Below, one piece after another: positions 1 to 16,932 of a DNA stretch of 64,000 nt. Below the pieces are notes generated by a model, which searched no databases, was not told the DNA's origin, and saw nothing but the letters and a program-made list of their open reading frames with translations. Every line of letters starts with the position of its first letter. Position 1 is the stretch's first letter. The stretch is from the NCBI RefSeq assembly GCF_030512175.1, contig NZ_JAULBL010000001.1:868001-932000 (forward strand), written 5' to 3'. The DNA is from Paeniglutamicibacter sulfureus. GTDB lineage: Bacteria; Actinomycetota; Actinomycetes; Actinomycetales; Micrococcaceae. A program made the position numbers and the translations under genes.

Positions 1-443
1 GGCTGACCCGCGACAGCGAGGAATTCGGCACCCGCGGACATGTGGACATCGTGGCGACCATCCCCTCCCCCGGCACCGTGCTGGTTCACATGCAGGAGGA
101 CCCCGAGCACCCGGACTATGCGGCCAGCCGGGAAATCGCCGCGTCCTTCCGCGGCGCCACCGACGCCAGGGGCCGCGAATTCACCGTCATCGAGGTCCCT
201 GCCCCTGCGACGCTGCGCGACACCGAGGGGTTCGTGGACTACAGCTACATCAACCACCTGGTCGTCAACGACGGGGTGGTGGCCTGCACCTTCAACGATC
301 CCAACGACGAAAAGGCCCTTGCCGTCCTTTCCGACGCCTACCCGGGGCGCAAGGTCGTGGGCGTGGATGCCCGTGAGCTATTCGCCCGCGGCGGCGGCAT
401 CCACTGCATCACCCAGCAGGAGCCGATGCCGACGGCGAAATGA
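1..443 (+). CDS. aguA: Agmatine deiminase family protein, C-terminal part (5' end outside window)
   Basis: The open frame already runs at base 3 and ends at the TGA at 441-443, so about 146 C-terminal codons are visible. The motif TRGHVDI near the start and GGGIHCITQQEP at the end match the agmatine deiminase / peptidylarginine deiminase-like family, in which the Cys of that last motif is the nucleophile. Family members convert agmatine to N-carbamoylputrescine and ammonia in the cytoplasm. The neighbouring genes do not form a polyamine pathway, so the true guanidino substrate could differ. The N-terminal half and the start codon are off the window. Confidence 0.88.
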   Translation, partial: LTRDSEEFGTRGHVDIVATIPSPGTVLVHMQEDPEHPDYAASREIAASFRGATDARGREFTVIEVPAPATLRDTEGFVDYSYINHLVVNDGVVACTFNDPNDEKALAVLSDAYPGRKVVGVDARELFARGGGIHCITQQEPMPTAK

Positions 444-1009: not shown

Positions 1010-2017
1010 CTAGATGTCCAGCACCAGGCGCCCGCCCTTGCAACGCGACACGCAGATCATCATGGTGTCGCCGGCCTCCCGCTCCTGATCGCTGAGCAGC
1101 GAATCGCGGTGGTCGATCTCCCCCGCGACCACCGGGGTCTCGCAGGTCCCGCAGATGCCCTCCCGGCAGGAGTTCAGCACCTGCACCCCGACTTCTTCCA
1201 GTGCGGTGAGGATGCTGGTGCCCACCGGAACCTGCACCTGAAGGCCTTCGGTCGTCTCTACGGTGAATTCATGGTCTCCCGCGGCAGGCGCGCTCGCGGC
1301 CGCGTCGGCGACAAAGCGTTCAAAGTGGAACCGTGCGGGGTCCTGCCAACCGGTGGTGAGCGTGGCGATGTAGTCCAGCAGCGGGCCGGGGCCGCACACA
1401 TAGGCGTGGAATCCCGCCGCCGGGCCGCCGAGCAGCTCGCCCAGGGGATAGAGCCCGGATTCGTCGTCCGCGTGCACGTGGACCTTCTCGCCGTACTGTG
1501 CCAGTTCGCCGGTGAAGGCCATGGAGCTGCGGCTGCGCCCCAGATAGACAAGGCGCCACGGCACCCCGGAGGCCTCGGCCGCGCGCAGCATGGGCAGGAT
1601 GGGCGTGATGCCGATGCCCCCGGCGATGAACACGTATTCGGGTGCGGGCCCGAGCGCGAAATTGTTGCGCGGGCTCCTGACGCGCAGCTGCTCGCCGGGC
1701 TTCAGTTGGTCGTGGATGTAGGCGGATCCGCCGCGGCCGGCGGGCTCCCGCAACACCCCCAGCCGCCAGCGCGGCTCCCCGGGGGCGGAGCACAGGGAGT
1801 ATTGGCGCAGCAGCCCGTTGGGGAGCATGACGTCGATGTGCGATCCCGGACTCCAGTCCGGCAGGGCGAGCCCGTCCGGGCGGGCAATGCCCAGGGAGAG
1901 AACCGATTCGGATTCCCGCCGGATGTCCACCACGTCCACGACGAAGAACCCGTCCTCGCTCGTCTGGCTGGTCGCCACCGGTTCCTCGATGATGTGCTTT
2001 TCACTTGTGCTGATCAC
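1010..2017 (-). CDS. PDR/VanB-family oxidoreductase (FMN / NAD / 2Fe-2S reductase)
   Basis: This is a 335-aa phthalate dioxygenase reductase-type electron-transfer protein. It has an N-terminal flavin domain with RQYSLCSAP (flavin binding), a nucleotide-binding segment GGIGITPILPML, and a C-terminal plant-type ferredoxin domain with CREGICGTC plus a later Cys for the 2Fe-2S cluster. Such proteins pass electrons from NAD(P)H to an oxygenase. The GTG start at 2017 is preceded by GGAGG and overlaps the upstream aminotransferase stop as GTGA, which implies translational coupling. No Rieske oxygenase is nearby, so the likely partner is the P450 at 8607. That pairing is inferred. The frame is open further upstream, but that part is the shadow of the aminotransferase gene. 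Confidence 0.9.
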   Translation of the reverse strand: MISTSEKHIIEEPVATSQTSEDGFFVVDVVDIRRESESVLSLGIARPDGLALPDWSPGSHIDVMLPNGLLRQYSLCSAPGEPRWRLGVLREPAGRGGSAYIHDQLKPGEQLRVRSPRNNFALGPAPEYVFIAGGIGITPILPMLRAAEASGVPWRLVYLGRSRSSMAFTGELAQYGEKVHVHADDESGLYPLGELLGGPAAGFHAYVCGPGPLLDYIATLTTGWQDPARFHFERFVADAAASAPAAGDHEFTVETTEGLQVQVPVGTSILTALEEVGVQVLNSCREGICGTCETPVVAGEIDHRDSLLSDQEREAGDTMMICVSRCKGGRLVLDI

Positions 2018-3165
2018 GATGCACCTCCAGTGCTGTGGATTGGGTGGGTGGTGAGTACTGTCTGCGGCGTTTGAGGGGGCCGCGCCGCTGCCGGCTCGTC
2101 CAAGGCGGCCAGGATTGCGAGGGAGGCCAGACGCGGGCCAATGGTCACCCGCACTCCCGCGCCGTCGAAGGCCCGGACCGACACCCCGTGCGCGGCGCAC
2201 GCGCGTTCGATGACGGTCGCCAGCCGGCCGTCTTCCGGGATCCAGAGGAAGTTGCCTCCGCTGCATGGGACGCCAATACCGCGGGCCTCCAGTTTCCGGT
2301 GCAGGAATTCGCGTTCGCCCGCCACCGCGGCCACGGTGCCGAGCAGGTAGTCGGTGTCGGCGAGGGCCGCCACGGCGCCGGCCTCTGCCACCGCGCTCAG
2401 CCCAAAGGGCGGGGCCACCTTGCGAATGGCGCGGACGATGCCCTCCCCTCCCAGCAGGTATCCGGCCCGCGCCCCGGCCAGGGCATGGGCCTTGGAGAAG
2501 GTCCGCAGGATCACCAGGTTCGGGTACTTGGGCAGCAGCATCAGGGTGTCGCCACTGGATTCGGAGAACTCGATGTAGGCCTCGTCGAGCACCACGAGCA
2601 CCCGGCCCGGAACCCTCGCGAGGAAGGATTCGACTTCGTTGATCCCCAGCACCGTTCCGGTGGGGTTGTTGGGATTGCACAGCAGCACCACCGCGGTGCG
2701 TTCGGTGATGGCACGGAGCATGGCCTCCGGGTCGTGGCGATGGGCCGCGTCCAGCGGCACCTGGACGCCCCGGGCCCCTGCCAGCGTGACCAGGATCGGA
2801 TAGGCCTCATAGCTGCGCCAGGCGTACAGCACCTCGTCGCCCGGCCCGGCGAACGCGGCAAGGACCTGGCCCAGCAGGGCCAGGGACCCTGCCCCCACCG
2901 CAACCTGGGTGCCGGGCAGCCCGAGCGTGTCGGACAGCGCGGCCACCAGCCGGTCCCCGGCCAGGCTCGGATAGCGGTTGGAGCGTTGCACGCTGGCCGC
3001 CATGGCCGCAACGGCAGCGGGCGAGGGCGACATCCAGGATTCGTTGGAGGAAGCCACCCACCGCACCTTCCCCGCGGCCGGCGAGCGCGAATAGTTCGGC
3101 AGCAGGTTCACCAGGTTGCGCGGCCGTGGTGTCGCCTCGCGTGCGCCGGATTGCTCGTGGGACAT
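2014..3165 (-). CDS. HisC-like / aromatic aminotransferase (PLP-dependent)
   Basis: The 383-aa fold-type I aminotransferase has LLCNPNNPTGTVL (substrate/PLP motif), VVLDEAYIEF (Asp for the PLP ring nitrogen) and RTFSKAHALAGAR, whose Lys forms the Schiff base. It resembles histidinol-phosphate and aromatic aminotransferases. The chosen ATG at 3165 has AAGGA just upstream; an in-frame start at 3195 is less well supported. No other his biosynthesis gene is near. It lies between an amino acid ABC transporter and an oxidoreductase in a lyase cluster, so a catabolic role on histidine- or aromatic-type amino acids is more likely than biosynthesis (inference). Confidence 0.88.
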   Translation of the reverse strand: MSHEQSGAREATPRPRNLVNLLPNYSRSPAAGKVRWVASSNESWMSPSPAAVAAMAASVQRSNRYPSLAGDRLVAALSDTLGLPGTQVAVGAGSLALLGQVLAAFAGPGDEVLYAWRSYEAYPILVTLAGARGVQVPLDAAHRHDPEAMLRAITERTAVVLLCNPNNPTGTVLGINEVESFLARVPGRVLVVLDEAYIEFSESSGDTLMLLPKYPNLVILRTFSKAHALAGARAGYLLGGEGIVRAIRKVAPPFGLSAVAEAGAVAALADTDYLLGTVAAVAGEREFLHRKLEARGIGVPCSGGNFLWIPEDGRLATVIERACAAHGVSVRAFDGAGVRVTIGPRLASLAILAALDEPAAARPPQTPQTVLTTHPIHSTGGAS

Positions 3166-3203
3166 CTGGTCCTTCCTTCTCCGGGTGGATTCCATCGACG
3201 CCC

Positions 3204-3971
3204 TTAGGCCAAGACCTTGGACAGGAAGGCCTGGGTTCTGGGTTCGCGGGGGTCCTCCAGGACCTGCCTGGGGCTGCCGGATTCCACCAGCTGCCCGTCC
3301 GCCATGAAGTGCACGACGTCCCCGACTTCCTTGGCGAAGCCCATTTCGTGGGTCACCACGATCATGGTCATCCCCGAAGCCGCCAGGGAAGTCATGACCT
3401 CCAGCACCTCCCCCACCAGCTCCGGGTCGAGCGCGGAGGTCGGCTCGTCGAAGAGCATGAGCTTTGGCTTCAGGGCCAGGGCCCGGGCGATGGCCACGCG
3501 TTGCTGCTGGCCCCCGGAGAGCTGCGCGGGGTAGTGCTGGTACTTGTCTGCCAATCCCACCCGGTCCAGCAGTTCCATGCCTTCGGCCATGGCCTTCGCG
3601 CGCGATTTGCGCTGCACGATGGTCGGTCCCTCAATCACGTTCTCCAGGGCGGTCCGGTGCGGAAACAGGTTGAATTGCTGGAAGACCATGCCGACGGATG
3701 CACGTTGCCTGGCCGTTTCGTTTTCCTTCAGCTCGTGCAACTTGTTCCCCGAACGGCGGTATCCAATGCGCTCCCCGTGGACCCACATTTCCCCGTCACT
3801 GATTTTTTCCAGGTGGTTGATGCACCTCAGGAACGTGCTCTTGCCCGAGCCGGATGGCCCCAGCAGGCACGCGACCTGTCCGGCCTGCACCTCAAGGGTG
3901 ATGCCCTTGAGGATTTCCAGGTGGCCGAAGGACTTGCGCACATTGTGGGCGCGCAGGACTGGTTCGTTCAT
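3204..3971 (-). CDS. Polar amino acid ABC transporter, ATP-binding protein
   Basis: This 255-aa ATPase is of the GlnQ/HisP type. Walker [10 protein letters not shown] lies near residue 38, the signature [15 protein letters not shown] near residue 145 and Walker [15 protein letters not shown] near residue 165, followed by the switch His in VVTHEMGF. It powers import of a polar amino acid through the permease encoded just upstream. The ATG at 3971 overlaps the permease stop by four bases (ATGA). The length is normal for the family. The solute is not determined by sequence; the lyase and aminotransferase next door suggest histidine or a relative. Confidence 0.95.
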
Positions 3972-4924
3972 TTGCTTGGCTCCAATTCCGGCTCGATGCT
4001 TGGCGCTGCCTTTGGTCCCGCGCCGGGGCCGGTTGCCGAGGCAGCGGGCGCCGCGGGCTTCTTGCCCTTGATGGGTGAGAAGCCCCGTTCAAAGTGGCGT
4101 TCGATGAAGTACTGGCCCACGGAAAGCACCGCGGTGACCGCCAGGTACCAGATGGCCGCCACGATGAGCAGCGGAATGGTCTGGAAATTGCGCGAGTAGA
4201 TGATCGACACGCTGGTCAACAGCTCCGAGTACCCAATGACGATGACCAAGGAGGTGTACTTGAGCATGCCGATGGTCTCGTTGCCGGTCGGCGGGATGAT
4301 CACGCGCATGGCCTGCGGCAGGATCACCCGGCGCATGGTCTGCATCCTGGACATCCCGATGGCCTTCGCCGCCTCGGTCTGGCCCGTGGCTATGGAGCGG
4401 ATGCCCGAGCGCACGATCTCTCCCATGTACGCGCCCTCATTGAGGCTCAGGCCCAAGAGCGCTGCGGTGAACGGGGAAATCACCGAGTTGGTGTCGATAC
4501 TCAGCAGCTCCGGTCCGAACGGGATGCCGAGCCCGATGTTCGGGATCAGGGCCGCCAGGAAGAACCAGAAGAGCAGTTGCACCATTAGTGGCGTCCCGCG
4601 GAAGAACCACGAGTACGCCCAGGCCGCGGTGGACAGGATCGGATTCGCAGAGAGCCTGCACACCGCCACCACGATCCCCAGCACGATGCCGATGAGCATC
4701 GAGATCGCCGTGAGCATCAGGGTCCGCCCCAGGCCCGCCAGCACCGGCTTGGCGAAGAGGTACTCGCCAACCACGTCCCAGTGGAAGCGTTCGTTGGCAA
4801 ACATCGAGTAGATCAGTATCAGCAGGATGCCGACGACTGCCACCGCGGCAATCCAGCGGCCCAGATAGCGCGCCGGCACGATGACCAGCCCGTTCTCCCG
4901 TGGTTCCGGGGCCCGAGTTGTCAT
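3968..4924 (-). CDS. Polar amino acid ABC transporter, permease
   Basis: A 318-aa HisM/GlnP-type permease. Several membrane helices are visible, starting with [18 protein letters not shown] near residue 30. The cytoplasmic EAA loop is [21 protein letters not shown] near residue 190. The C-terminal 40 residues (Pro/Ala/Gly-rich, then PELEPSK) form a hydrophilic tail longer than in typical relatives. One permease gene suggests a homodimeric channel. It overlaps the gene before it and the gene after it by four bases each, so the three transporter genes are translationally coupled. Confidence 0.94.
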
Positions 4925-5820
4925 TGCTTGACCCCGTTGACGGGGAAGGACTCCATGGTGTGGTCGGCCATGTTGTACTTGGCCAGGATCTTGTCGTAGC
5001 TGCCGTCGGCCTTGATGGCCTCGAGTCCCTTTTGGATGGTGTTCATGAGCTGTTCCTGGTCCTTGGGGAAGACTATGCCGAAGGCAAGGTCCTGGTACCG
5101 TTCGCCCATGGCCAGGGCGCCCTTGGACTCAGCGGCAATGACCGACCCGGAGGTCGAATCGACCAGGAAGGCGTCCACGCGGTTCGACTGCAGGGCCAGC
5201 ACGGCCTGGTTCTGTCCGGCGAAGATCGTGACCTTGACCGCCTGCTTGCCGGCTTCCTCGCACTTCTTGGAGGCCTCGGCTGCGTCGGCGTCCTCGGTGG
5301 TGCCCTTCACGATGCCCACGTGGGAGCCGCAGAGGTCATCGAGCGTCTTGAGTTTCTCTGCGTTCGCTGCCGAGGTCATGACGCCTCCTCCCGCGGAGAA
5401 GTAGTCGATGAAGTTGACCTGCTTCTGGCGTTCGACGGTGTCGGACATCGCCGACATGGCCATGTCGTAGCGTGCCGAGGCAAGGCCCGGGATGATCGCG
5501 TCGAAGGCGATGTTGTCGAAGTCCATGGTGACGCCCAACTGCTTCTCCAGCTCGTCGGCGATTTCCCTGTCGATGCCGATGACGGTGGTGCCGTCCGTGT
5601 CAAAGGATTCAAATGGCGGGTATTCGACGTTGCTGGCCACGTTGATGGCCCCGGATTTTTGGACCTTCTCCGGCAGTTGACTAAACAGGGGCGCACTTGC
5701 GTTGGCTGCGGCCGGATTCTCGGCTTCCGCGGTCCCGCCGCATGCGGAGAGCGCGAGCATGCCGGCCAGGGCAAGTGCACCAAGTGCGCCGGAACGGATG
5801 GTGCGCGTGGAGTTTTTCAT
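4921..5820 (-). CDS. Amino acid ABC transporter, substrate-binding lipoprotein
   Basis: This 299-aa family 3 extracellular solute-binding protein has a lipoprotein signal with lipobox LALSACGG, so the mature protein is anchored outside the membrane by Cys. The segment NVEYPPFESFDTDGTTVIGIDREIADEL is typical of the amino acid-binding fold. The ATG at 5820 has a strong AGGAGG upstream; the 40 residues read before it are untranslated leader. It starts the transporter trio, 161 bases downstream of the lyase gene, and is probably in the same transcript. Confidence 0.94.
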   Translation of the reverse strand: MKNSTRTIRSGALGALALAGMLALSACGGTAEAENPAAANASAPLFSQLPEKVQKSGAINVASNVEYPPFESFDTDGTTVIGIDREIADELEKQLGVTMDFDNIAFDAIIPGLASARYDMAMSAMSDTVERQKQVNFIDYFSAGGGVMTSAANAEKLKTLDDLCGSHVGIVKGTTEDADAAEASKKCEEAGKQAVKVTIFAGQNQAVLALQSNRVDAFLVDSTSGSVIAAESKGALAMGERYQDLAFGIVFPKDQEQLMNTIQKGLEAIKADGSYDKILAKYNMADHTMESFPVNGVKQ

Positions 5821-5981
5821 GGTGGGTTCCTCCTGATGGATGCGTACTGAACTGCTGGAGCGGATGGGGACTTTCATGTGGGTGAATCCGTCGGATTCCG
5901 TGACGGGCACGGGCTTTTTGGGCATGGGCAGTAGAGCCACCGACTTCAGTGGTGCGCTGGGGGCGTTGCTGGGTTGTTCGG

Positions 5982-7658
5982 CTAGCCGGCGAGAACCTTG
6001 TTCACGGTTTCAACGACCGATCCGCTGTGCACCAAGTCCAGGGCCTTCCGGACCCGTGGATACATGACCACGTCGGCGAGGATATGGTCGATCGGCCGTC
6101 CGTCGGCCGACTTGCTGCCCCGCACCAGAGCCAGCGCGGCCGCGCTTGCCGCGCCCGGGCGGGCATCCCCGGTGTCGGGGTGCGCGGCACGCAGTTCCAG
6201 CGCCTGGGCGGCCATGAGCAATTCGATGCCGACCACGGATTCGATGTTGGCAACGATCTGCCGGGCGTGCCGTCCGGCGTTATTGGCCATTGAGACGTGG
6301 TCTTCCTGGTTGGCGCAAGTGGGGATGGAATCGACCGAGTCGGGGTGGGCGAGGGTCTTGCAGTCGGACACCAGTGCCGCGGCCAGGTATTGCGGCAACA
6401 TATAGCCGCAGTCCATGCCCGTTTGTTCGCTGTCGATCAGCATGTCGGGCAGCCCCCGGTTCAGCGTTCCGTCGTCAAGTCGGAAGAGCCGGCGTTCGGT
6501 GATGTTGCCGATCTCGGTGACCACGATGGAGATGAAATCGGCGGCGAAGGCCACGTACTCGGCGTGGAAGTTCCCTCCCGAGACGGCTTTGAGTTTGCGG
6601 TTGTCGGGCAGCGACGGGAAAATCAGCGGGTTGTCGGTGGCCGCGTTGATTTCGTTGTCGATGATCCCGGCCGCGAAGGCCAAGGTGTCCTTGATCGGGC
6701 CAAAGACCTGCGGGATGCAGCGCAGCGAGTAGGCGTCCTGGGGCGGCTGGCGGACCGGGTCGGTTGAGGCGTTGCCGTCAATGAGGGTGGACCCCGACAG
6801 CAGTTCGCGGATGCGCGCCGCGACCTCGATTTGTCCGCGCTGTCCGCGGGCCTGGTGCAACTCGTCAATGAAGGCGTCACCGAACCCCATGAGCGCCTCG
6901 ATGGTCATGGCCGCGGTGATTTGTGCCGTTTCCAGCAGGTTCTGTGCGTCGTAGAGGGCCAGTGCCGCCTGGGCGCAGGAGAACGAGGTGCCGTTGAGCA
7001 GGGCGAGTCCGTCCTTGGCCCCCAGCGGGAGCCGCTCGATGCCGGCGTGGCGCATCGCGGCGATGCCGCTGACCACCTTGCCGTCCAGCAGGGCCTCCCC
7101 CGAATCCAGATCCACGTCTTCGCCGGTGTGCGACCGCGACATCACGATGGCCACGTGGGCCAGCGGGATGAGGTCGCCAGAGGCGCCGAGCGAGCCGTAC
7201 TCCGGAATCGCCGGGCAGACCCCCGCATTGAGCATCCGGGCCAGGGTGCTGACGATTTCGGGCCGCACCCCGGAGTATCCCTGGGTCAGGCTGACGATGC
7301 GGATGAACATCGTCGCCCGCACGACTTCCTCGTCCACGTGACGCCCCACGCCCGCGGCGTTTGAGAGCACCAGGCGCCGGGACAGTTCGGCGGCGTCGGC
7401 CGGCTCGGCGAAGGCCTTGCGCCCGGCCAATGACCCGAACCCGGTGTTGATGGAATAGATCGGTGGTGTCTGTTTGCCCGGTCCCATCGCATCGACGATG
7501 CCGTCCAGCCATTCCCGACTGGGGGCCATGGCGTCGAAGACCGCATCATCGATGATTACGGGGCGTCGATGCCGGGCCACCTGAATGAGGTCGTCGAGCG
7601 TGGCACGGTGAACGCCAATGGTCACCGGTGCCGTTTCAGCCAATACTGCTGTAGTCAT
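5982..7658 (-). CDS. hutH: Histidine/aromatic amino acid ammonia-lyase (MIO family)
   Basis: A 558-aa lyase of the HAL/PAL family, which removes ammonia from histidine or an aromatic amino acid to give an acrylate. Ala159-Ser160-Gly161 (GASGDL) would cyclise to the MIO electrophile. Other family residues are present: Tyr68 in YSINTGFG, Asn in LALLNGTS, the Gln/Tyr/Arg of QDAYSLRC, Phe in GNFHAE and Glu in ANQEDHVSM. The Glu is typical of histidine lyases. The unusual point is Asn100 in LVLSNAAGVG, where histidine lyases have His. At 558 aa it is also longer than usual (about 510). No hutU, hutI or hutG is in the window. The ATG at 7658 follows AGGGAG; a TTG three bases upstream is possible. 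It overlaps the IclR gene by 23 bases. Confidence 0.9.
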   Translation of the reverse strand: MTTAVLAETAPVTIGVHRATLDDLIQVARHRRPVIIDDAVFDAMAPSREWLDGIVDAMGPGKQTPPIYSINTGFGSLAGRKAFAEPADAAELSRRLVLSNAAGVGRHVDEEVVRATMFIRIVSLTQGYSGVRPEIVSTLARMLNAGVCPAIPEYGSLGASGDLIPLAHVAIVMSRSHTGEDVDLDSGEALLDGKVVSGIAAMRHAGIERLPLGAKDGLALLNGTSFSCAQAALALYDAQNLLETAQITAAMTIEALMGFGDAFIDELHQARGQRGQIEVAARIRELLSGSTLIDGNASTDPVRQPPQDAYSLRCIPQVFGPIKDTLAFAAGIIDNEINAATDNPLIFPSLPDNRKLKAVSGGNFHAEYVAFAADFISIVVTEIGNITERRLFRLDDGTLNRGLPDMLIDSEQTGMDCGYMLPQYLAAALVSDCKTLAHPDSVDSIPTCANQEDHVSMANNAGRHARQIVANIESVVGIELLMAAQALELRAAHPDTGDARPGAASAAALALVRGSKSADGRPIDHILADVVMYPRVRKALDLVHSGSVVETVNKVLAG

Positions 7659-8421
7659 CAAGGGTCTCCCTGGTTGATTTGTTCGGTGTGCACTCTTGCA
7701 ATGCCTGGGTAAGTTTGTTGGCCGATTCCTGCATGACGCGCAGCGTGGAGGAGATCCAGAAGCGAGAACCGCACGTTGCCTCGGGACCGGCGACGTTGAT
7801 CGAGCAGACGACTTCTCCCTGGCTGGTCACCGGGATGGCGATGGACAGCGATCCCTGATCCAGTTCGCCGCGGGAAAGCACATATCCGGAGGACCGGGTC
7901 TGCGGAATGGACGCCAGGATTTGCTCGCGGTTCATGGTCTTGGCGGTGAACCGGGTCATGGATCCGGTGAGCACCTCGTGAACCACTTCCGGGGGTGCCC
8001 AGGCCAGCAGCACCCGCTGCCCCGCCCCCGCATGCAGCGGCAGCAATTCGTTGACCGCGAAGGAGTATTTCAGGGACTTCTCCGGTTCCACACGCCGAAG
8101 GCACATGGCCTGGGAACCAATCCGCACGATCATCACGGCCGTTTCCCCGACCTGGTCCACGATTTCGCGAAGCACCGCATTGCCCACCTCGGCGAGGTAG
8201 GACTGGGCATGGTGGCGGCCGGCGGACCTAAGAAGCGCCGGGCCCGGCCGGTACCGTCCGTCTTCCTCGCAGACGAAATCCTGTTCGCGCAGCACCTTGA
8301 AATAGCGGTACGCGGAGCTTGCGGGAATGCCGAGCTTCCTGGACACGGCCTCGACCGAGGCGTCTCCGTGTTCAATGACCTCGGTCAGGATTCTCAATCC
8401 CCGTTCAAAAGACGTTGACAT
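7636..8421 (-). CDS. IclR-family transcriptional regulator
   Basis: A 261-aa regulator with an N-terminal winged helix (FERGLRILTEVIEHGDASVEAVSRKLGIPASSAYRYFKVL) and a C-terminal IclR effector domain ending in GEVVCSINVAGPE. These proteins bind DNA as dimers and respond to small aromatic or organic acids. The ATG at 8421 follows GGGAGG and is preferred to the start at 8589, which would invade the divergent promoter region. The stop overlaps the lyase start, so regulator and lyase are co-transcribed. It is likely the local regulator of both arms, through the palindrome at 8524-8538. Confidence 0.92.
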   Translation of the reverse strand: MSTSFERGLRILTEVIEHGDASVEAVSRKLGIPASSAYRYFKVLREQDFVCEEDGRYRPGPALLRSAGRHHAQSYLAEVGNAVLREIVDQVGETAVMIVRIGSQAMCLRRVEPEKSLKYSFAVNELLPLHAGAGQRVLLAWAPPEVVHEVLTGSMTRFTAKTMNREQILASIPQTRSSGYVLSRGELDQGSLSIAIPVTSQGEVVCSINVAGPEATCGSRFWISSTLRVMQESANKLTQALQECTPNKSTRETLDDYSSIG

Positions 8422-8523
8422 GTCCCAAGCCTCCCTTCCAACCCAAGATGCGGTGTGATGCGCGACATATTCTTGCGCACTGATTCGATGTTGCACGCTG
8501 CGGGAGCGAAGGACAATTCCGAC

Positions 8524-8538
8524 TCTCACATAGTGAGA
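8524..8538. promoter_or_regulatory. Perfect inverted repeat, candidate IclR operator
   Basis: TCTCAC-ATA-GTGAGA has two perfect 6-base arms around a 3-base centre. It lies in the 185-base gap between the divergent IclR and P450 genes. It sits just upstream of a possible P450 promoter, TTACTC (8546-8551), 17 bases, TAGGTT (8569-8574). That position suits an activator or a dual regulator. Operator function is inferred from symmetry and location. Confidence 0.5.
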
Positions 8539-8606
8539 ACCACGCTTACTCGCTGAACCGCGGCACGCTAGGTTGAGGGCAGTCACCACGATCTCGGGAG
8601 GTACCC

Positions 8607-9815
8607 ATGGACTCGACCCTGGCCGCTGCCACAGCGCCGATATTTACGGAAGACCCCTATTCCCCGGCGCATTTGGCCGAACCATATGGGCTCTTTGAAC
8701 GCATGCGCGACGCCGGCCCGGTTGTACTGCTCAAGGAGCACGATGTCTTGGCCGTGACGCGCTTCGATGAGTGCAAGGAAGTCCTGGAGGACTATCGGAC
8801 CTTCATCTCCGGCGCGGGTGCCGGGCCGCGGAACCTTCACCGCGAACCCAGCTGGCGGGCCCAGGGCATCATGGAATCGGATCCCCCGATCCACACCCAG
8901 ATGCGCCATGCCATAGCCGGAGTCATCTCACCCCGCGGGGTCCGTTCGCTGCGCGCGGGTTTCGAGGAGTACGCCACCGAGCTGGTCGACGAGCTGCTGG
9001 AGCGCGGGGAATTCGACCTGGTCAAGGACCTGTCGGAGGTTTTCCCCCTGCGCGCGTTTGGGGATGCCGTCGGTATTCCGCGCGAGGGCCGGGCCGAGAA
9101 CCTCCTGGCGCTGGGCGCTGCCAATTTCTCCACCTTCGGACCCGACACGCCCCTGGCCAGGGAGCATTTTTCCGCCGGGGCCGGCACCAACGACTGGGCC
9201 ATGGCCAATACCGCCCGTGAACGGCTGCGCCCTGGCAGCCTGGGTGCGCAGATCTGGGACCTCGCAGACCGCGGCGAGATCACCACGGACCAGGCACCGC
9301 TACTGGTGCGGGCCATGCTCTCGGCAGGCCTGGACACCACGATCTTCTCGCTGGGAGCCACGTTGTTGGCCTTGGTCCGCCACCCCGGGCAATATGCGAA
9401 GGTCCACGAGAATCCCAAGCTCGTGAAGTTCGCCATCGACGAGGCCTTCCGCTATGAGTCGCCGTTTCAGTCCTTCTACCGCACGACGAGCCAGGCCGCG
9501 GAAATCGGGGGCATGGCCATCCCGGCCGATACCAAGGTCGCGGTATTCGTTGGCGCCGCGAACCGCGACGAGCGGCGCTGGGGGCCGACGGCGAACGAGT
9601 ACGATATCGCCCGAGCAGCCGGCGGGCACCTGGCATTCGGCATGGGCATCCACCAGTGCGTGGGCCAGCCGCTGTCGCGACTCGAAATGGACGTGCTGAT
9701 CACCGAACTGGCGCGCCGGGTGAAGAGCATCGAGTTGACGGCCGAGCCCGAGCAATTCATGCACACCACGCTACGCGGCTGGAAATCCATTCCGGTGAGG
9801 GTCGCCGCCGCTTAG
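8607..9815 (+). CDS. Cytochrome P450 (CYP199-like)
   Basis: A 402-aa soluble bacterial P450. The I-helix oxygen-activation motif AGLDTT is at residues 240-245, the K-helix ExxR is EAFR at 279-282, and the heme loop FGMGIHQCVG at 344-353 has axial ligand Cys351. The segments around LSAGLDTT and FGMGIHQCVGQ resemble CYP199-type enzymes, which oxidise para-substituted benzoic and cinnamic acids. That resemblance is from memory, not a search. The ATG at 8607 has GGGAGG upstream. No ferredoxin gene is adjacent; electrons probably come from the VanB-type reductase at the other end of the cluster. A lyase-made arylacrylic acid is a plausible substrate (inference). Confidence 0.92.
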   Translation: MDSTLAAATAPIFTEDPYSPAHLAEPYGLFERMRDAGPVVLLKEHDVLAVTRFDECKEVLEDYRTFISGAGAGPRNLHREPSWRAQGIMESDPPIHTQMRHAIAGVISPRGVRSLRAGFEEYATELVDELLERGEFDLVKDLSEVFPLRAFGDAVGIPREGRAENLLALGAANFSTFGPDTPLAREHFSAGAGTNDWAMANTARERLRPGSLGAQIWDLADRGEITTDQAPLLVRAMLSAGLDTTIFSLGATLLALVRHPGQYAKVHENPKLVKFAIDEAFRYESPFQSFYRTTSQAAEIGGMAIPADTKVAVFVGAANRDERRWGPTANEYDIARAAGGHLAFGMGIHQCVGQPLSRLEMDVLITELARRVKSIELTAEPEQFMHTTLRGWKSIPVRVAAA

Positions 9816-9908: not shown

Positions 9909-11120
9909 TCACCCCTCGCCCAGGCGCACGTGTTGCGGACCTAGTTCCGACAGGGTGCGCACGCCCAGCAGGGCCATGGTTTGCCGAATCTCCCGTTCGA
10001 GGATCTCCAGGGCGCGTTCAACCCCTGCCTGTCCCCCGGCCATCAAACCGTAGAGGTAGGCCCTGCCGATGAGGGTGAAGTTCGCCCCTGCGGCCAGCGT
10101 CGCCACCACGTCGCCGCCGCTCATGATTCCCGAATCGGCGATGATGAGCCGGTCCGGTCCCACGGCCGCGCGGATGGCAGGCAGCTGCAACACCGGCACC
10201 GGCGCCCTGTCCAGCTGGCGTCCGCCATGGTTGGAGACCACCACGCCGTCGACGCCGTGCCCAAAGCATGCCACAGCGTCCTCCGGGCCCTGCACTCCCT
10301 TGACGATCAAGGTGCCCGGCCATGCCTCCCGCACCCAGGCGAGGTCGGTGTAGTTCAGGGATGCGTCAAACATCGTGTTGAACTGGGCACTGACGTTTCC
10401 CGTGTTGTCCGGAAAGTTTGCGAAGCCCAGCGGTTCGGTGGTGAGGAAGTCCAGGCACCAGCCGGGGCGCCTGAGCGCATCGAGAACGGTTGAAGGGCCG
10501 AGCGTGGGCGGCAGCGTCATGCCGTTTCGTTGGTCCCGAAAGCGGTTGGACGTCACGGCGGTGTCCACTGTCAGGAGCAGGGCACTGTAGCCGGCTTCCC
10601 GGGCCCGGCGCATCATGGCCAGGGACGCCGCACGGTCCTGGCCGAGGTACAGCTGGAACCAGCGGGTGCCCCCTGGTGCCGCGGCGGCGGTTTCCTCGAT
10701 GGACACGGTACCCATGGTGGAAAGGGTGAAGGGTATGTTCTGCCGTGCCGCTGCTGCTGCCCCGGCGCGTTCTCCGGCGGCATGCATCAGGCGGGTCAGT
10801 CCGGTGGGGGCGATGCCCACAGGCAACGAGAATCGCCCACCGGCCACGGTCACGGAGGGGTCCACCGCGCTGACGTCGCGCAGGATCCCAGGTAGCAACT
10901 CGGTGTTCCGGTACGCACGGTAGTTCCGTTCCAAGGCCTCTTCGGCGTAGGAACCGCCATCCGCATAGTCGAAGGCCGCAGTGGGAGTGCGGCGCTTGGC
11001 AAGCCTTCGCAGGTCTTCCAGGTTCAGCGCCCCACTCGCCGGACCCTTGCCTGGTTTCGGCAATGACTTGAATTTCAACTGGGCGAGGGCCGCAGGAATC
11101 CGGGTGAGGGAACGTTTCAT
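9909..11120 (-). CDS. FMN-dependent alpha-hydroxy acid dehydrogenase (LldD/glycolate oxidase family)
   Basis: A 403-aa TIM-barrel flavoprotein. SNHGGRQLD holds the catalytic His and Arg; the N-terminal FDYADGGSYAEEAL and LPVGIAPTGLTRLMHAAGE are typical of the family, and the phosphate-binding end is IADSGIMSGGDVV. Members oxidise L-lactate, glycolate, mandelate or other 2-hydroxy acids to 2-oxo acids, passing electrons to oxygen or the respiratory chain. The ATG at 11120 is chosen because the preceding 56 codons run through a palindrome and look non-coding. The substrate is unknown; a hydroxy acid related to the neighbouring amino acid pathway is possible. Confidence 0.9.
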   Translation of the reverse strand: MKRSLTRIPAALAQLKFKSLPKPGKGPASGALNLEDLRRLAKRRTPTAAFDYADGGSYAEEALERNYRAYRNTELLPGILRDVSAVDPSVTVAGGRFSLPVGIAPTGLTRLMHAAGERAGAAAAARQNIPFTLSTMGTVSIEETAAAAPGGTRWFQLYLGQDRAASLAMMRRAREAGYSALLLTVDTAVTSNRFRDQRNGMTLPPTLGPSTVLDALRRPGWCLDFLTTEPLGFANFPDNTGNVSAQFNTMFDASLNYTDLAWVREAWPGTLIVKGVQGPEDAVACFGHGVDGVVVSNHGGRQLDRAPVPVLQLPAIRAAVGPDRLIIADSGIMSGGDVVATLAAGANFTLIGRAYLYGLMAGGQAGVERALEILEREIRQTMALLGVRTLSELGPQHVRLGEG

Positions 11121-11144
11121 GATGCGAAGCGACCTGCCTTTCGA

Positions 11145-11169
11145 GCGTGGAGGACACTGTCCTCCACGC
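11145..11169. promoter_or_regulatory. 25-bp perfect palindrome upstream of the hydroxy acid dehydrogenase
   Basis: GCGTGGAGGACA-C-TGTCCTCCACGC is symmetric over 12 bases each side of one central C. It lies 24 bases upstream of the dehydrogenase ATG. With a one-base centre it cannot form a good hairpin, so a dimeric repressor operator is the more natural reading. No regulator gene for it lies next to the dehydrogenase. Confidence 0.55.
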
Positions 11170-11254
11170 ATCCTAGGCATCGGCGGGGCATGGCGTGCAA
11201 ACGGCGTTCCCGCCGGGCGAGAAGCGGCCGAGGCCGGTCGGCGCTTAACGGCGA

Positions 11255-11295
11255 ACGGCGGTTGGCCACCGGAAAACCGGATGTCCAACCGCCGT
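11255..11295 (-). terminator. Terminator-like hairpin downstream of sucD
   Basis: Arms ACGGCGGTTGG (11255-11265) and its complement (11285-11295) enclose a second short stem, CCGG-AAAA-CCGG. It lies just past the sucD stop on the minus strand. There is no clear T-run, as is common in high-GC actinobacteria. Confidence 0.55.
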
Positions 11296-11315: not shown

Positions 11316-12218
11316 TTAGAGTGCGGCGAAAACTTCGCGCAGCAGCGTTGCGGTTTCCGACGGGGTCTTTCCGACCTTCACGCCTGCAGCCTCAAGTGCT
11401 TCCTTCTTGGCCTGTGCGGTACCGGCCGAGCCCGAGACGATGGCGCCGGCGTGGCCCATGGTCTTGCCCTCGGGTGCGGTGAAGCCGGCCACGTAGCCGA
11501 CGACCGGCTTGGTGACGTTGGCCTTGATGAAGTCGGCCGCACGCTCTTCGGCGTCGCCGCCGATTTCGCCGATCATCACGATGGCCTTGGTCTCCGGGTC
11601 CGCCTCGAACGCAGCCAGGGCGTCGATGTGGGTGGTGCCGATGACCGGGTCGCCGCCGATGCCGATGGCGGTGGAGAAGCCCAGGTCGCGCAATTCGTAC
11701 ATCATCTGGTAGGTCAGGGTGCCGGACTTGGAGACCAAGCCGATCGGGCCCTTCTGGGTGATGTTGTTCGGCGTGATGCCGACCAGTGCCTCACCCGGGG
11801 TGATGATGCCGGGGCAGTTCGGGCCGATGATGCGGGTGACCTGGTTGCCGTCGGCGTCGACCTTGGACTGGGCCAGTGCCCAGAACTCGGCCGAATCCTG
11901 AACCGGAACGCCCTCGGTGATGACAACGACCAGGCCGATGCCTGCCTCGATGGCCTCAACGACTGCATCCTTGGTGAATGCCGGCGGCACGAAGACGATG
12001 GAAACGTCTGCGCCGGTTTCGGCCATGGCTTCCGCCACTGCGCCGAAGACCTTGATCTCCTTGTCGCCGTGCAGCACCGTGGTGCCGGCCTTGCGGGCGT
12101 TGACGCCGCCGACGACGTTGGTGCCGGCCTTCAGCATCAGTGCGGTGTGCTTGGTGCCCTCGCCACCGGTGATGCCCTGAACGATGACCTTGGAGTCCTT
12201 GTTAAGGTAAATGCTCAT
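11316..12218 (-). CDS. sucD: Succinyl-CoA ligase (ADP/GDP-forming), alpha subunit
   Basis: The 300-aa product begins [21 protein letters not shown], the CoA-binding Rossmann domain, and carries [10 protein letters not shown] with the phosphorylated active-site His. With SucC it makes succinate and a nucleoside triphosphate from succinyl-CoA in the TCA cycle. It follows sucC by 16 bases and ends at the hairpin near 11295. The length is normal for the family. Confidence 0.97.
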
Positions 12219-12234
12219 GTTCGCGTATCCCTAC

Positions 12235-13404
12235 TTACTTCGCTGCGTTGGCGAGCTCGGCGGCCTTGTCGGCGCCCTCGTCCATGGTTGCTGCCAGGGT
12301 GACCAACGGGTGGTTGGCCTCGGCCAGGATGCGGCGGCCCTCTTCGACGTTGTTGCCGTCGAGGCGCACGACCAGCGGCTTGTTGGCGGAGGAACCGAGT
12401 TCGGCCAGCGCGCCGACGATGCCCTTGGCAACGGCGTCACACGCGGTGATGCCACCGAAGACGTTCACGAAGACCGACTTGACCTGCTTGTCGTTCAGGA
12501 TGACGTCCAGGCCTGCGGCCATGACCTCGGCGGAGGCTCCACCGCCGATGTCCAGGAAGTTGGCGGGCTTCACGTTGCCGTGGTTTTCGCCGGCGTAGGC
12601 AACGACGTCAAGGGTCGACATGACCAGACCTGCACCGTTGCCGATGATGCCCACTTCGCCGTCCAGCTTGACGTAGTTCAGGTCCATTGCTTTGGCCTTG
12701 GCCTCGAGCGGATCCGCTGCGTCCTTGTCCTCAAGCTCGACGTGGTGCGGGTGGCGGAACTCGGCGTTCTCGTCGATGGAGACCTTGCCGTCGAGGGCGA
12801 CGATGTCGCCGGCGCCGGTGCGAACCAGCGGGTTGACCTCAACCAGGGTTGCGTCTTCCTTCTTGAAGACGTCCCACAGCTTCAGGATGGCGGAGGCGAC
12901 CTTTTCGGTCAGCTCCGGGGCGAAACCGGCGGCGGCGACGATCTCGTCGGCCTTGGCCTGGTCGATGCCCACGGCCGGGTCAACTGCAATGCGGGCCAGG
13001 GCCTCGGGACGCTCAACGGCGAGATCCTCGATTTCCATGCCGCCTTCCACCGAGCACATGGCCAGGTAGTTGCGGTTCGCGCGGTCCAGCAGCACCGAGA
13101 AGTAGAACTCCTCGGCAATGTCGGCGCCCTGGGCGATCATGACCTTGTTCACGGTGTGGCCCTTGATGTCCATGCCGAGAATGTCGGTTGCGTATGCGAA
13201 TGCCTCGTCGGCGGTCTTTGCGACCTTGACGCCGCCGGCCTTGCCGCGGCCTCCGACCTTTACCTGGGCTTTAACAACCACGACGCCGCCGATTTTCTCG
13301 GCTGCTGCCTTGGCTTCTTCAGGAGTGTAGGCAACGATGCCGGCCAGCACGGGTACGCCGTGCGACTCGAACATATCGCGCGCCTGGTATTCATACAGGT
13401 CCAC
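12235..13404 (-). CDS. sucC: Succinyl-CoA ligase, beta subunit
   Basis: A 389-aa ATP-grasp protein starting (V)[18 protein letters not shown]. It has the nucleotide-binding lysines in [17 protein letters not shown] and the [16 protein letters not shown] and [16 protein letters not shown] segments at the subunit interface and CoA/His loop. The GTG at 13404 gives the usual N-terminus and has GAAGGA upstream. The 22 codons read before it are leader. It is followed by sucD in the standard bacterial order. Confidence 0.97.
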
Positions 13405-13533
13405 GGGCTTGTGTCCTTCTTGTCGAAGTCTATGCTGACTCAAGGCATGGCTCCGTAGGCACGGTTCCATGCGTCGAGGGGGTAGAGCCCAACCTGGGAT
13501 AAGGCCAGGCTCCTTGCTCAGCCTAACGCCTTA

Positions 13534-13577
13534 GCGCCCAATGGCACAGTTCTACATTCGGTAGAGCCATCGGGCGC
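13534..13577 (-). terminator. Hairpin between pcrA and sucC
   Basis: Arms GCGCCCAATGGC (13534-13545) and GCCATCGGGCGC (13566-13577) pair with one mismatch. It lies 66 bases past the pcrA stop and upstream of sucC on the same strand, so it likely separates the two transcripts. The sucC promoter should lie in 13405-13530. Confidence 0.5.
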
Positions 13578-13643
13578 GTGAGTACCGACACAACCACATC
13601 ACCGCAGGTCCGAACGGATGTGTCGACAATGCCCGGGAACCGG

Positions 13644-16049
13644 CTAGTCAGCCTTGGTTAGCGGGGCGTATCGCAGCAATAGGCGTTTCTCGGCATCGGC
13701 GAACTTAACCTTTGCCACTGTCTTGTCCCCGGCACCCTCCAGCGCCAGAACCACGCCTTGGCCGAAGGTCCCGTGTGTCACCTTGTCCCCCACCGACAAG
13801 GAAATGATTTCCTTGTTTGGCTGCACACGGCCCTTGGCCCGCGCCGGGGGCGCGGTGCTCAACGTGTGGATCTCCGGGGCGCCGGAAAGCCTGCCTCCGC
13901 CACCGCTGCCGGACCCTGCGCCCCAATAGGAACCCGATTCGTAGCGGCTGGTGGCAAAGTTGTTGCGCCCGCCGAAGGACTCAAAGCTGGCCCGCTTGGT
14001 GCCCTCGCGTTTCCAGTCCACCAGACTCCCGGGGATTTCCTCGAGGAACTGGCTGGCGGGGTTGTATTGGGACTGGCCCCACAGGCTCCGGTATTCGGCC
14101 CGCGTCAAGTAGAGACGCTGGCGGGCACGGGTGAGCCCCACATAGGCCAGTCTGCGTTCCTCCGCCAATTCCTTCTCGTCGGTCAGCGAGCGCTGGTGCG
14201 GGAAGATCCCGTGTTCCATGCCAGTGAGGAAGACCACCGGGAATTCCAGCCCCTTGGCCGTGTGCAAGGTCATGAGCGTGACCATTCCCTCACGGTGCGC
14301 CATGTCCACGCCCTCCGCATCGTTCGGTGCCTCGGGGATGGAATCGGCGTCGGCCACCAGCGCCACGCGTTCCAGGAAATCCGTAAGCGTTCCCTCGGGA
14401 TTCTCCTTCATGAAGTCCCGCACCACGGCCACGAGCTCGGCGAGGTTCTCAACGCGGGATTCGTCCTGTGGGTCGTTGGATGAACGCAGCATTTCCAGGT
14501 AGCCGGTCTGCTCCAGGACCGCTTCCAGCGCATCGGCAGGTCCCGAGCCCTCTGCGACCACTGAGAGGTCGTCAATGATCTTCACGAAGGCGCCGATCAT
14601 GTTTTGCCCGCGGGTTCCGAGGCCGGGGGCGTCATCGGCACGGCGCAGCGCCGCCATGAAGGAGATCCGTTCGCGTTCGGCCAGCGCGGCCACCGAGTAT
14701 TCGGCCCGGTCCCCGATCCCGCGCTTGGGTTCGTTGAGAATGCGCCTGACGTTGATGTCGTCTTCCGGGTTCACCAGCACCCGCAAGTAGGCCAGGGCGT
14801 CCTTGACTTCCTTGCGGTCGTAGAAGCGGGTTCCGCCAATGACCTTGTACTTCAGGTCCACGCGGATCAGCTGTTCCTCGAGGGAACGCGATTGCGCGTT
14901 GGTGCGGTAGAAGACGGCAACGTCCCCGGGGCGGATGCCTTCCTCGTCATTCAGGCGCAGGATCTCATCGGCGATCCAGCGGGCCTCGTCCGACTCGGAC
15001 TCCCCCACGTAGCCGATGATCAGTTCGCCGTCGCCCTCCGCGGTCCACAGTCGCTTTTCGGGGCGGTCGGGGTTGCGCTTAATCACTTCGTTGGCGGCCG
15101 AGAGGATCGTTTGCGTCGAACGGTAGTTCTGCTCGAGCTTGATCGTTTCGGCGTCCGGATAATCCTTGGAGAACTCGTTGATGTTGCGGATGTCCGCGCC
15201 ACGGAAGGCATAGATCGATTGGTCCGAGTCGCCCACCACAGTCAGTTCGCCGCCGGGAGTGGGGCCGTCCGGGCCGGTCAGTTCACGCACCAGGGCGTAC
15301 TGTGCGTGGTTGGTGTCCTGGTACTCGTCGACCATGACGTGGCGGAAACGCCGGCGGTAATTGTCGGCGACCGCAGGGAAGGCGCGGAAGATGTTGACCA
15401 CGTGGGCAATCAGGTCATCGAAGTCCAGGGCGTTTGCGGCGCGCAAACGCTCGGTGTAGCCGCGGTACACCTGGAGGACGGCCGAGGCGAACGGGTCATT
15501 GCCTGCGACTGTGGCGGCATATTGTTCATCGTCAATGAGCTCGTTCTTCAGCGCGGAGATCTTGTGCGCGATCGACTTGGGCGTGAACTTCTTCGGATCC
15601 AGCTCCAGGCCCTTGGCCACCATCGTGATCAGGCGCAGGGAATCTGCGGAGTCATAGATGGAGAAGCTGGACTTCAGTCCCACCGAAGCCGCCTCCCGGC
15701 GAAGGATGCGCACGCACGAGGAGTGGAACGTTGAAACCCACATTTTCTTGGCCACGTCTTCACCCACCAGGGCGGCGATTCGCTCACGCATTTCGGCCGC
15801 GGCCTTGTTGGTGAACGTAATGGCCAGGATCTCGTGTGGACGTGCCCGACCCGTGGCCAGGAGATAGGCAATGCGATGTGACAGCACCCGGGTCTTGCCC
15901 GACCCGGCCCCGGCGACAATCAGCAACGGGGAGCCTGCATGCTTGACCGCCTGCTCCTGCTCGGGATTTAAACCGGCAAGCAGCTCTTGGGTGCCTGGCA
16001 ATTGTGGGGCTGGAGCGGGCGCGACGAAGTCATCGAAAAGGAAATCCAT
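13644..16049 (-). CDS. pcrA: ATP-dependent DNA helicase PcrA/UvrD
   Basis: An 801-aa superfamily 1A helicase. It begins with GLNPEQEQAVKHAG (Q motif), followed by AGAGSGKTRVLSHRIAYL (Walker A), then VDEYQDTNHAQ (motif II), GDSDQSIYAFRGAD (motif III) and LMTLHTAKGLEFPVVFLTG (motif V). It unwinds DNA 3' to 5' in repair and replication restart. The C-terminal 60 residues (ISLSVGDKVTHGTFGQGVVLALE) form the Tudor-like RNA polymerase-binding domain usual in PcrA. The start MDFLFDDF at 16049 is chosen over a long Phe-rich upstream extension that overlaps the divergent gene. Confidence 0.96.
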   Translation of the reverse strand: MDFLFDDFVAPAPAPQLPGTQELLAGLNPEQEQAVKHAGSPLLIVAGAGSGKTRVLSHRIAYLLATGRARPHEILAITFTNKAAAEMRERIAALVGEDVAKKMWVSTFHSSCVRILRREAASVGLKSSFSIYDSADSLRLITMVAKGLELDPKKFTPKSIAHKISALKNELIDDEQYAATVAGNDPFASAVLQVYRGYTERLRAANALDFDDLIAHVVNIFRAFPAVADNYRRRFRHVMVDEYQDTNHAQYALVRELTGPDGPTPGGELTVVGDSDQSIYAFRGADIRNINEFSKDYPDAETIKLEQNYRSTQTILSAANEVIKRNPDRPEKRLWTAEGDGELIIGYVGESESDEARWIADEILRLNDEEGIRPGDVAVFYRTNAQSRSLEEQLIRVDLKYKVIGGTRFYDRKEVKDALAYLRVLVNPEDDINVRRILNEPKRGIGDRAEYSVAALAERERISFMAALRRADDAPGLGTRGQNMIGAFVKIIDDLSVVAEGSGPADALEAVLEQTGYLEMLRSSNDPQDESRVENLAELVAVVRDFMKENPEGTLTDFLERVALVADADSIPEAPNDAEGVDMAHREGMVTLMTLHTAKGLEFPVVFLTGMEHGIFPHQRSLTDEKELAEERRLAYVGLTRARQRLYLTRAEYRSLWGQSQYNPASQFLEEIPGSLVDWKREGTKRASFESFGGRNNFATSRYESGSYWGAGSGSGGGGRLSGAPEIHTLSTAPPARAKGRVQPNKEIISLSVGDKVTHGTFGQGVVLALEGAGDKTVAKVKFADAEKRLLLRYAPLTKAD

Positions 16050-16855: not shown

Positions 16856-16932
16856 GCCTCTGTAGCTCAGTTGGATAGAGCGACTCTCTCCTAAAGAGTA
16901 GGCCGTCGGTTCAATTCCGGCCAGGGGCACCA
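16856..16932 (+). tRNA. tRNA-Arg (anticodon CCT)
   Basis: A 77-base cloverleaf: acceptor stem GCCTCTG with CAGGGGC and encoded CCA, D-arm GCTCAGTTGGATAGAGC, anticodon stem ACTCT/AGAGT around loop CTCCTAA (anticodon CCT, reading AGG), and T-arm around TTCAATT. Its 3' portion from 16886 on is repeated at 24785-24832, marking it as the integration site of the element that follows. The intact gene is kept at the left end. Confidence 0.95.

Follow-up and report, generated by a model that had tools for sequence, protein, structure and literature searches.

Organization of the ammonia-lyase gene cluster

We analysed a stretch of 64,000 nucleotides from Paeniglutamicibacter sulfureus (C1:868001–932000 of a 4.55-Mb genome; the whole stretch is referred to as the window). 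Near its left end lies a cluster of eight genes around an ammonia-lyase of the histidine ammonia-lyase (HAL) family (window positions 1010–9815). On the minus strand the order is VanB-type reductase, HisC-like aminotransferase, three ATP-binding cassette (ABC) transporter genes, lyase and IclR-family regulator; a cytochrome P450 gene is divergent from this run. All eight are open frames, and both their families and the divergent P450 agree with a preliminary description made from the letters and open frames of the sequence.

The reductase (1010–2017) is of the VanB/phthalate dioxygenase reductase type, with flavin and a C-terminal [2Fe-2S] cluster. The HisC-like aminotransferase (2014–3195) scores under the cut-offs of two NCBIfam models (PRK03321, 362 bits against 374; hisC, 254.9 against 276.6). 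Profile matches identify a transporter ATPase of the polar amino acid type (3204–3971) and a permease (3968–4924). They are followed by a family 3 solute-binding lipoprotein (4921–5820; PF00497) with a lipobox-like LSACGG in the translation; its longest frame extends to 5940, and the start at 5820 was chosen by reading the sequence. The lyase (5982–7658; PF00221, 536 bits) belongs to the type that forms the 4-methylideneimidazole-5-one (MIO) cofactor. Next to it is the IclR-family gene (7636–8421; profile matches), probably the local regulator of the cluster. The P450 (8607–9815, plus strand; PF00067) has Cys351 as haem ligand. Judging from gene coordinates and the sequence itself, the region between the two divergent units (8422–8606) is a likely control region. 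Overlapping gene ends had been noted for the minus-strand run as a whole. They are found for reductase and aminotransferase, ATPase and permease, permease and binding protein, and lyase and regulator, but not for aminotransferase and ATPase or for binding protein and lyase.

Distribution and active site of the lyase

Within the bacterial family of the window, 35 of 295 sampled genomes matched the lyase at E 1e-100, 20 of them at 69–100% identity and 15 only at 43–45%; we read the latter as probable carriers of canonical HutH. In the order sample nine of 297 genomes matched at E 1e-120 (seven of them new), and in the class sample two of 394 (none new). A contig scan yielded 23 loci, including Nakamurella, Mesorhizobium, Aquamicrobium and Rhodobacteraceae. 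After removal of nine duplicates 41 loci were analysed, the window included. The window lyase and its orthologs form a group of their own at 65–99% identity, with canonical HutH apart at about 37–45%; in a Paeniglutamicibacter quisquiliarum record (L078) the lyase is 97% identical to that of the window.

The MIO-forming Ala-Ser-Gly is present in the window lyase (residues 160–162 of the translation). In an alignment to the Pseudomonas putida HAL (1gkm) the catalytic Glu414 is kept as Glu453, and the essential His83, which corresponds to H82 of the Geobacillus HAL, is replaced by Asn101. This replacement is general: the column holds Asn in 34 and Asp in 6 of the 41 rows, the remaining row being an unread fragment, so that all 40 readable copies are changed. 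The six loci L084–L089, all from one family, have Asp in place of Asn. Glu414 is conserved in 40 of 41 rows, the exception being L081, in which the frame is lost at this point. By homology to tyrosine lyases, the altered residue presumably lies in the ring pocket, at its distal end. According to PMC11432326, a Geobacillus HAL mutated at the matching position (H82L) is inactive on histidine; the same paper, citing Beliaeva et al. 2022, counts N-tau-methylhistidine among the substrates of HAL. Because the essential His is Asn or Asp in every readable copy, plain histidine is an unlikely substrate of the window lyase. Its predicted activity is most likely directed at N-tau-methylhistidine.

A canonical histidine utilization set elsewhere in the genome

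The genome contains a second HAL-family gene, 40% identical to the window lyase, within a canonical histidine utilization (hut) set at C1 479–488 kb. This second gene passes the NCBIfam hutH equivalog model with 614.7 bits (cut-off 539), which the window lyase fails to reach with 510 bits. Beside it lie hutU (884 bits, cut-off 375), HutF (459, cut-off 362), an allantoate-amidohydrolase-like M20 enzyme (570, cut-off 372) and a HutI-like frame. The latter had no NCBIfam match at a strict threshold of 1e-100 and is 34–38% identical to the HutI proteins of the type-B loci described below. The window lyase is therefore an extra one. The preliminary description had concluded from a lack of urocanase that this is not the normal histidine pathway. 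The lack applies to the cluster but not to the genome, which has a urocanase in its canonical set; the conclusion itself is supported. A complete hut set elsewhere combined with a lyase acting normally on histidine had been named as one finding that would speak against a novel route. The set does exist, but normal action on histidine is unlikely judging from the active site.

Two genomic settings of the lyase

We searched the 41 loci for 15 components by tblastn, with score thresholds set by ourselves, and distinguished two types by the presence of a P450 of the window type. The P450 split between the types is thus given by construction; the split of urocanase, HutI and HutF does not follow from the definition. 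Type A comprises 28 loci including the window. Relatives of the P450 and of IclR were found in 27 of these, the VanB-type reductase in 24, solute-binding protein and permease in 17 each, the ATPase in 16, the HisC-like aminotransferase in 15, an LldD-like dehydrogenase in 8 and a GlcD-like protein in 4. A dedicated urocanase, HutI, HutF, M20 enzyme or HutC was found in none of the 28. The 13 type-B loci, eight alphaproteobacterial and five from the family of the window, hold urocanase, HutI and HutF in 11 each, the HisC-like aminotransferase in 10, the ATPase in 8, HutC in 7, the GlcD-like protein in 6, M20 enzyme and permease in 5 each, and solute-binding protein and LldD-like dehydrogenase in 4 each; their genes were assigned to families by profile scans. 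Relatives of the window's P450, VanB-type reductase and IclR regulator were found by tblastn in none of the 13.

In 27 of the 28 type-A loci the midpoints of lyase and P450 lie within 2.5 kb and those of lyase and IclR within 3 kb of each other. The exception (L052) is a 4.9-kb fragment; on a different contig (L152) of its genome, part of a lyase gene has the P450 next to it. The association of lyase, P450 and IclR extends over three families and a Nakamurella. Because these relatives lie so close to the lyase in nearly all type-A loci, the gene arrangement of the window exceeds chance. The joint occurrence of lyase, P450 and VanB-type reductase in other genomes, which the preliminary description had suggested looking for, is thus found in the type-A loci.

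In each of two trees only 2 changes are needed to explain three groups by a switch between the types. The branch that sets type A apart has support 96/99 in the first tree, which included a mis-framed canonical row (L024), and 51/66 in the second, from which this row and L081 (3' frame lost) were left out; the fragment L052 is in neither. Since the support falls in the second tree, the direction of the switch and a single origin of type A are not settled by these sequences.

Relatives of the ABC transporter, the HisC-like aminotransferase and the GlcD-like protein occur in both types, and these proteins therefore probably act before the routes branch. In three loci (L065, L068, L082; profile-scanned in L082 only) a GlcD-type flavin adenine dinucleotide (FAD) oxidase and the HisC-like aminotransferase form one open frame of about 840 aa, which points to entry of the substrate's hydroxy or oxo acids into the route as well. 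In the window a flavin mononucleotide-dependent 2-hydroxy acid dehydrogenase, LldD-like (9909–11288, minus strand; PF01070), lies next to the P450, and its membership in the cluster is uncertain: relatives at 82–100% identity adjoin the cluster in L034, L035, L036 and L038, L037 and L039 have none beside it, and relatives at 40–44% lie within the cluster in L042, L043 and L046. One could argue from these enzymes that the compound actually degraded is imidazole-lactate or imidazole-pyruvate, with the amino acid as a mere intermediate. Dehydrogenase and aminotransferase genes do occur in both types, in one frame in the three loci above, and genes of a tripartite ATP-independent periplasmic (TRAP) type transporter, named in L073, are clustered in five type-B loci. 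However, the unsubstituted acids would be converted to plain histidine, a substrate of the canonical lyase, so that an Asn lyase and a second urocanase would be pointless, and the dehydrogenase genes are missing from many loci of both types. We consider this explanation hardly credible.

Apart from the named components, no neighbour family occurs in more than 7 of the 41 loci (nine genes on either side). No formaldehyde- or methylamine-handling gene was named among 20 neighbour proteins scanned at strict thresholds, a scan in which 9 of the 20 had no match and which covered only part of the neighbours.

Urocanase and HutI classes in whole genomes

All 41 genomes were searched with a type-B urocanase and with a type-B HutI. 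The dedicated urocanase class (68–100% identity) is present in 13 of 13 type-B genomes, including those of L072 and L075, in which the gene lies outside the analysed stretch, and in none of the 28 type-A genomes, that of the window included. Dedicated set and window-type P450 are thus mutually exclusive. A urocanase of the canonical class (46–51%) is found in 27 of the 28 type-A genomes. In total 25 of the 28 have one urocanase-family gene, one has none and two have extra canonical-class pieces, namely a second, broken copy in G062 and two partial ones in G122. The broken copy of G062 (L148, about 13.7–15.2 kb; G062:C1:741711–742856) lies about 12 kb from the type-A lyase and contains two TAG stops; two of its frames share 91% and 69% identity with the urocanase in the canonical set of the window's genome. 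In an alignment of 10 dedicated and 31 canonical urocanases, the dedicated rows share 40–47% identity with this same canonical urocanase and 67–99% with that of L073, the canonical rows 58–100% with the former. HutI shows the same pattern, with a second class (44–100%) in all 13 type-B genomes and a single copy at 36–42% in 27 of 28 type-A genomes.

Four type-B urocanases were scanned against profile models and scored near-equally on hutU (620–668 bits) and S-methyl-thiourocanate hydratase (615–676 bits). A sulfur-type urocanase was rejected for type B, all four lying far below the sulfur-model cut-offs of 880 and 930.

The P450 and its reductase

In the family sample 62 of 295 genomes matched the window P450 at E 1e-80. 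P450s with at least 65% identity occur in exactly the 15 genomes of this sample that carry the type-A lyase. By convention P450s of one family share at least 40% and those of one subfamily about 55% identity. With 45.5% identity to PbdA, the nearest solved P450, and 42.2% to CYP199A4, the window P450 belongs to the CYP199 family and falls outside subfamily CYP199A (42–46% identity and an altered Arg-Ser-Ser carboxylate site). According to PMC11530827, PbdA O-demethylates para-methoxybenzoates with a single reductase, PbdB, and binds the carboxylate through Arg84, Ser87 and Ser237; CYP199A4 N-demethylates para-substituted benzoates, more slowly than it O-demethylates, and both enzymes also carry out hydroxylation. 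When all 27 type-A P450s are aligned (PbdA numbering), Arg84 is kept, Ser87 is replaced by Gly with a one-residue deletion close by, and Ser237, Val288 and Ala174 are replaced by Ala, Phe and Asn, respectively. CYP199-like relatives away from the lyase share the changes to Gly, Ala and Phe. We therefore rejected the carboxylate-site changes as a mark of the substrate; they mark a wider P450 group and are no proof of a substrate.

The reductase has NAD_binding_1 (residues 130–178) and Fer2 (257–326) domains and matches phthalate dioxygenase reductase (2pia) over residues 20–335, which places it in this type. Its two best solved relatives are P450-named chains of 779 and 786 aa, the match lying in the C-terminal part of each; further ones include a ferredoxin-named reductase, with 2pia in fourth place. 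The VanB-type reductase is the probable electron donor to the P450.

Two loci (L149, L150) contain a P450, a VanB-type reductase and a distant IclR without the lyase, possibly an aromatic-acid demethylase cassette. This arrangement bears on whether the lyase might be a second ordinary histidine ammonia-lyase next to an unrelated cassette of that kind. The lyase indeed passes a broader, subfamily-level NCBIfam model of histidine ammonia-lyase (537 bits, cut-off 524). Yet it stays below the equivalog cut-off, lacks the essential His in all 40 readable copies and has P450 and IclR beside it in 27 of 28 type-A loci from three families and a Nakamurella, all of which makes such a coincidence very improbable.

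In seven genomes of one genus (L140–L146) a CYP199-like P450, 55–58% identical to that of the window, lies within about 10 kb of canonical hutH and hutU. We made no use of this proximity as support: in L141, the only one of these loci annotated throughout, threonine dehydrogenase, glycine C-acetyltransferase and other genes lie in between.

The P450 might also hydroxylate the lyase product, for example at the ring or the acrylate, and so open a different route without demethylation. The hydroxylations by PbdA and CYP199A4 and the differences between the window P450 and the CYP199A active site would fit this. Against it, the neighbour families offer no conspicuous genes of a further route, and a canonical-class urocanase is kept in 27 of 28 type-A genomes. 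We regard hydroxylation as quite improbable.

A proposed route for ring-substituted histidine

At a probability of roughly 0.5, we propose that the cluster serves the catabolism of a ring-substituted histidine, most likely N-tau-methylhistidine, with the P450 removing the methyl group and the resulting urocanate entering the canonical hut pathway. The ABC transporter would import the substituted histidine and perhaps also the corresponding 2-hydroxy and 2-oxo acids. In loci that have them, a hydroxy acid dehydrogenase and the HisC-like aminotransferase, which would work in both directions between amino acid and 2-oxo acid, may turn these forms into the amino acid. The altered lyase would then remove ammonia to give a ring-substituted urocanate, from which P450 and VanB-type reductase, using NADH and O2, would take off the methyl group as formaldehyde; the urocanate so formed would join the hut pathway encoded elsewhere in the genome. 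In type B the substituted urocanate would be processed by the dedicated urocanase, HutI and HutF. Taken together, one specialised lyase may thus stand before two branches for ring-N-methylated histidine, one in which a duplicated hut set processes the compound with its methyl group still attached and one in which methylurocanate is oxidatively demethylated by a CYP199-type P450, a scheme we put forward tentatively and at somewhat less than even odds.

The steps of this argument are comparative. Since orthologs of this lyase are accompanied in other genomes by a dedicated urocanase, HutI and HutF, the substrate is tied to the imidazole ring. As type B has the dedicated set in place of the P450, removal of the ring substituent would be the most economical role for the P450, and as type A lacks this set but has P450 and canonical set, the P450 step would be the simplest link between the two. 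N-tau-methyl is our best guess because the altered lyase residue is presumably distal, CYP199A enzymes demethylate para substituents and a bacterial pathway for N-tau-methylhistidine is in print; by analogy, the N-tau-methyl group would be distal to the acrylate much as a para substituent is to a carboxylate. The preliminary description had supposed an imported imidazole or aromatic amino acid, possibly a methylated or thiolated histidine, that is deaminated and then hydroxylated or demethylated. Deamination of a methylated histidine followed by P450 demethylation with the VanB-type reductase is the reading best supported by the split between types A and B. A thiolated histidine such as ergothioneine is not favoured: none of the 28 type-A genomes has a second-class urocanase, and the lyase is far from ergothionase.

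The group removed by the P450 could also be another one, the substrate then being N-pi-methylhistidine or a histidine with a larger N-alkyl or a C2 substituent. The mutual exclusion with the dedicated hut set identifies the product as a urocanate analogue and no more, the change in the lyase does not name the group, and the near-equal scores of the four type-B urocanases on the hutU and sulfur models leave room for it. The N-tau position, distal to the side chain, would however agree best with the position changed in the lyase and with the para-type regiochemistry of CYP199 enzymes, and the four urocanases lie far below the sulfur-model cut-offs. We therefore judge another substituent unlikely, though worth keeping in view.

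Several observations weigh against the demethylation of N-tau-methylhistidine. Of the three residues with which PbdA binds the carboxylate, two are replaced (Ser87 by Gly, Ser237 by Ala), and methylhistidine alone does not explain the hydroxy acid enzymes. The type-A loci L084–L089 have no ABC and HisC relatives; four of them have a reductase relative at 36–40% identity, and in the other two none was found. Nor is type B entirely free of P450s: in L076 the lyase is directly followed by a P450 of another kind and a fatty acid desaturase (11739–14332, plus strand), and genome G276 has a CYP199-like P450 at 49% identity elsewhere. Among type-A genomes, no urocanase was found in G924, a genome whose completeness is not given, and no HutI in G105 with the type-B query; five of the 27 type-A HutI matches hold an internal stop. 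Finally, since a urocanase is present in 240 of the 295 genomes of the family sample, finding one in type A says little by itself; the informative part is the absence of the second urocanase class from type A.

Other features of the window

At the window edge lies the C-terminal part of an agmatine deiminase-like protein (3–443, plus strand; frame and profile matches). A tRNA-Arg (CCT) at 16856–16932 (plus strand) is the only tRNA found in the window.

Comparison with known systems and implications

The cluster shares lyase fold, MIO motif and imidazole substrate class with the canonical hut pathway (HutH, HutU, HutI, HutF), and type B has paralogs of its later steps. It differs in containing no urocanase, HutI or HutF, in the Asn at the position of the essential His and in the separate canonical set in the same genome. 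A bacterial route for N-tau-methylhistidine, which Beliaeva et al. are said to have published in 2022, reportedly uses a dedicated methylurocanate hydratase and no P450. The kind of substrate is probably the same, and the type-B loci resemble such a parallel hut set; a second urocanase class, the candidate for such a dedicated hydratase, is found in 13 of 13 type-B but in 0 of 28 type-A genomes. Ergothionase likewise performs a HAL-family elimination from a histidine derivative, followed by hydratases of the urocanase family. It is, however, the weakest of 39 solved sequences matching the window lyase at E 0.001, and type-A genomes lack a second-class urocanase.

With PbdA/PbdB of Rhodococcus jostii RHA1 and with CYP199A4 the window system has in common the P450 family, a single flavin/iron-sulfur reductase (PbdA) and, if the proposal holds, demethylation of an aromatic carboxylic acid (PMC11530827). 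Its substrate would instead be a heteroaromatic acrylate, Ser87 and Ser237 are replaced, and the gene partner is an ammonia-lyase. Among the matches listed in a literature search whose coverage mostly excludes subscription journals, no title or abstract opening mentioned a P450 in histidine or methylhistidine breakdown.

N-tau-methylhistidine is freed on breakdown of muscle protein and used as a marker of it. The Asn or Asp in place of the essential His would provide a sequence mark for lyases that are probably misannotated as histidine ammonia-lyases. The mutual exclusion of the two settings predicts that canonical hutU is needed for growth on the compound in strains of the P450 type, but not in strains with the dedicated urocanase. 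If true, the P450 branch would represent a new CYP199 reaction and a new step in the catabolism of histidine derivatives, and a CYP199 group outside lignin chemistry would gain a physiological substrate.

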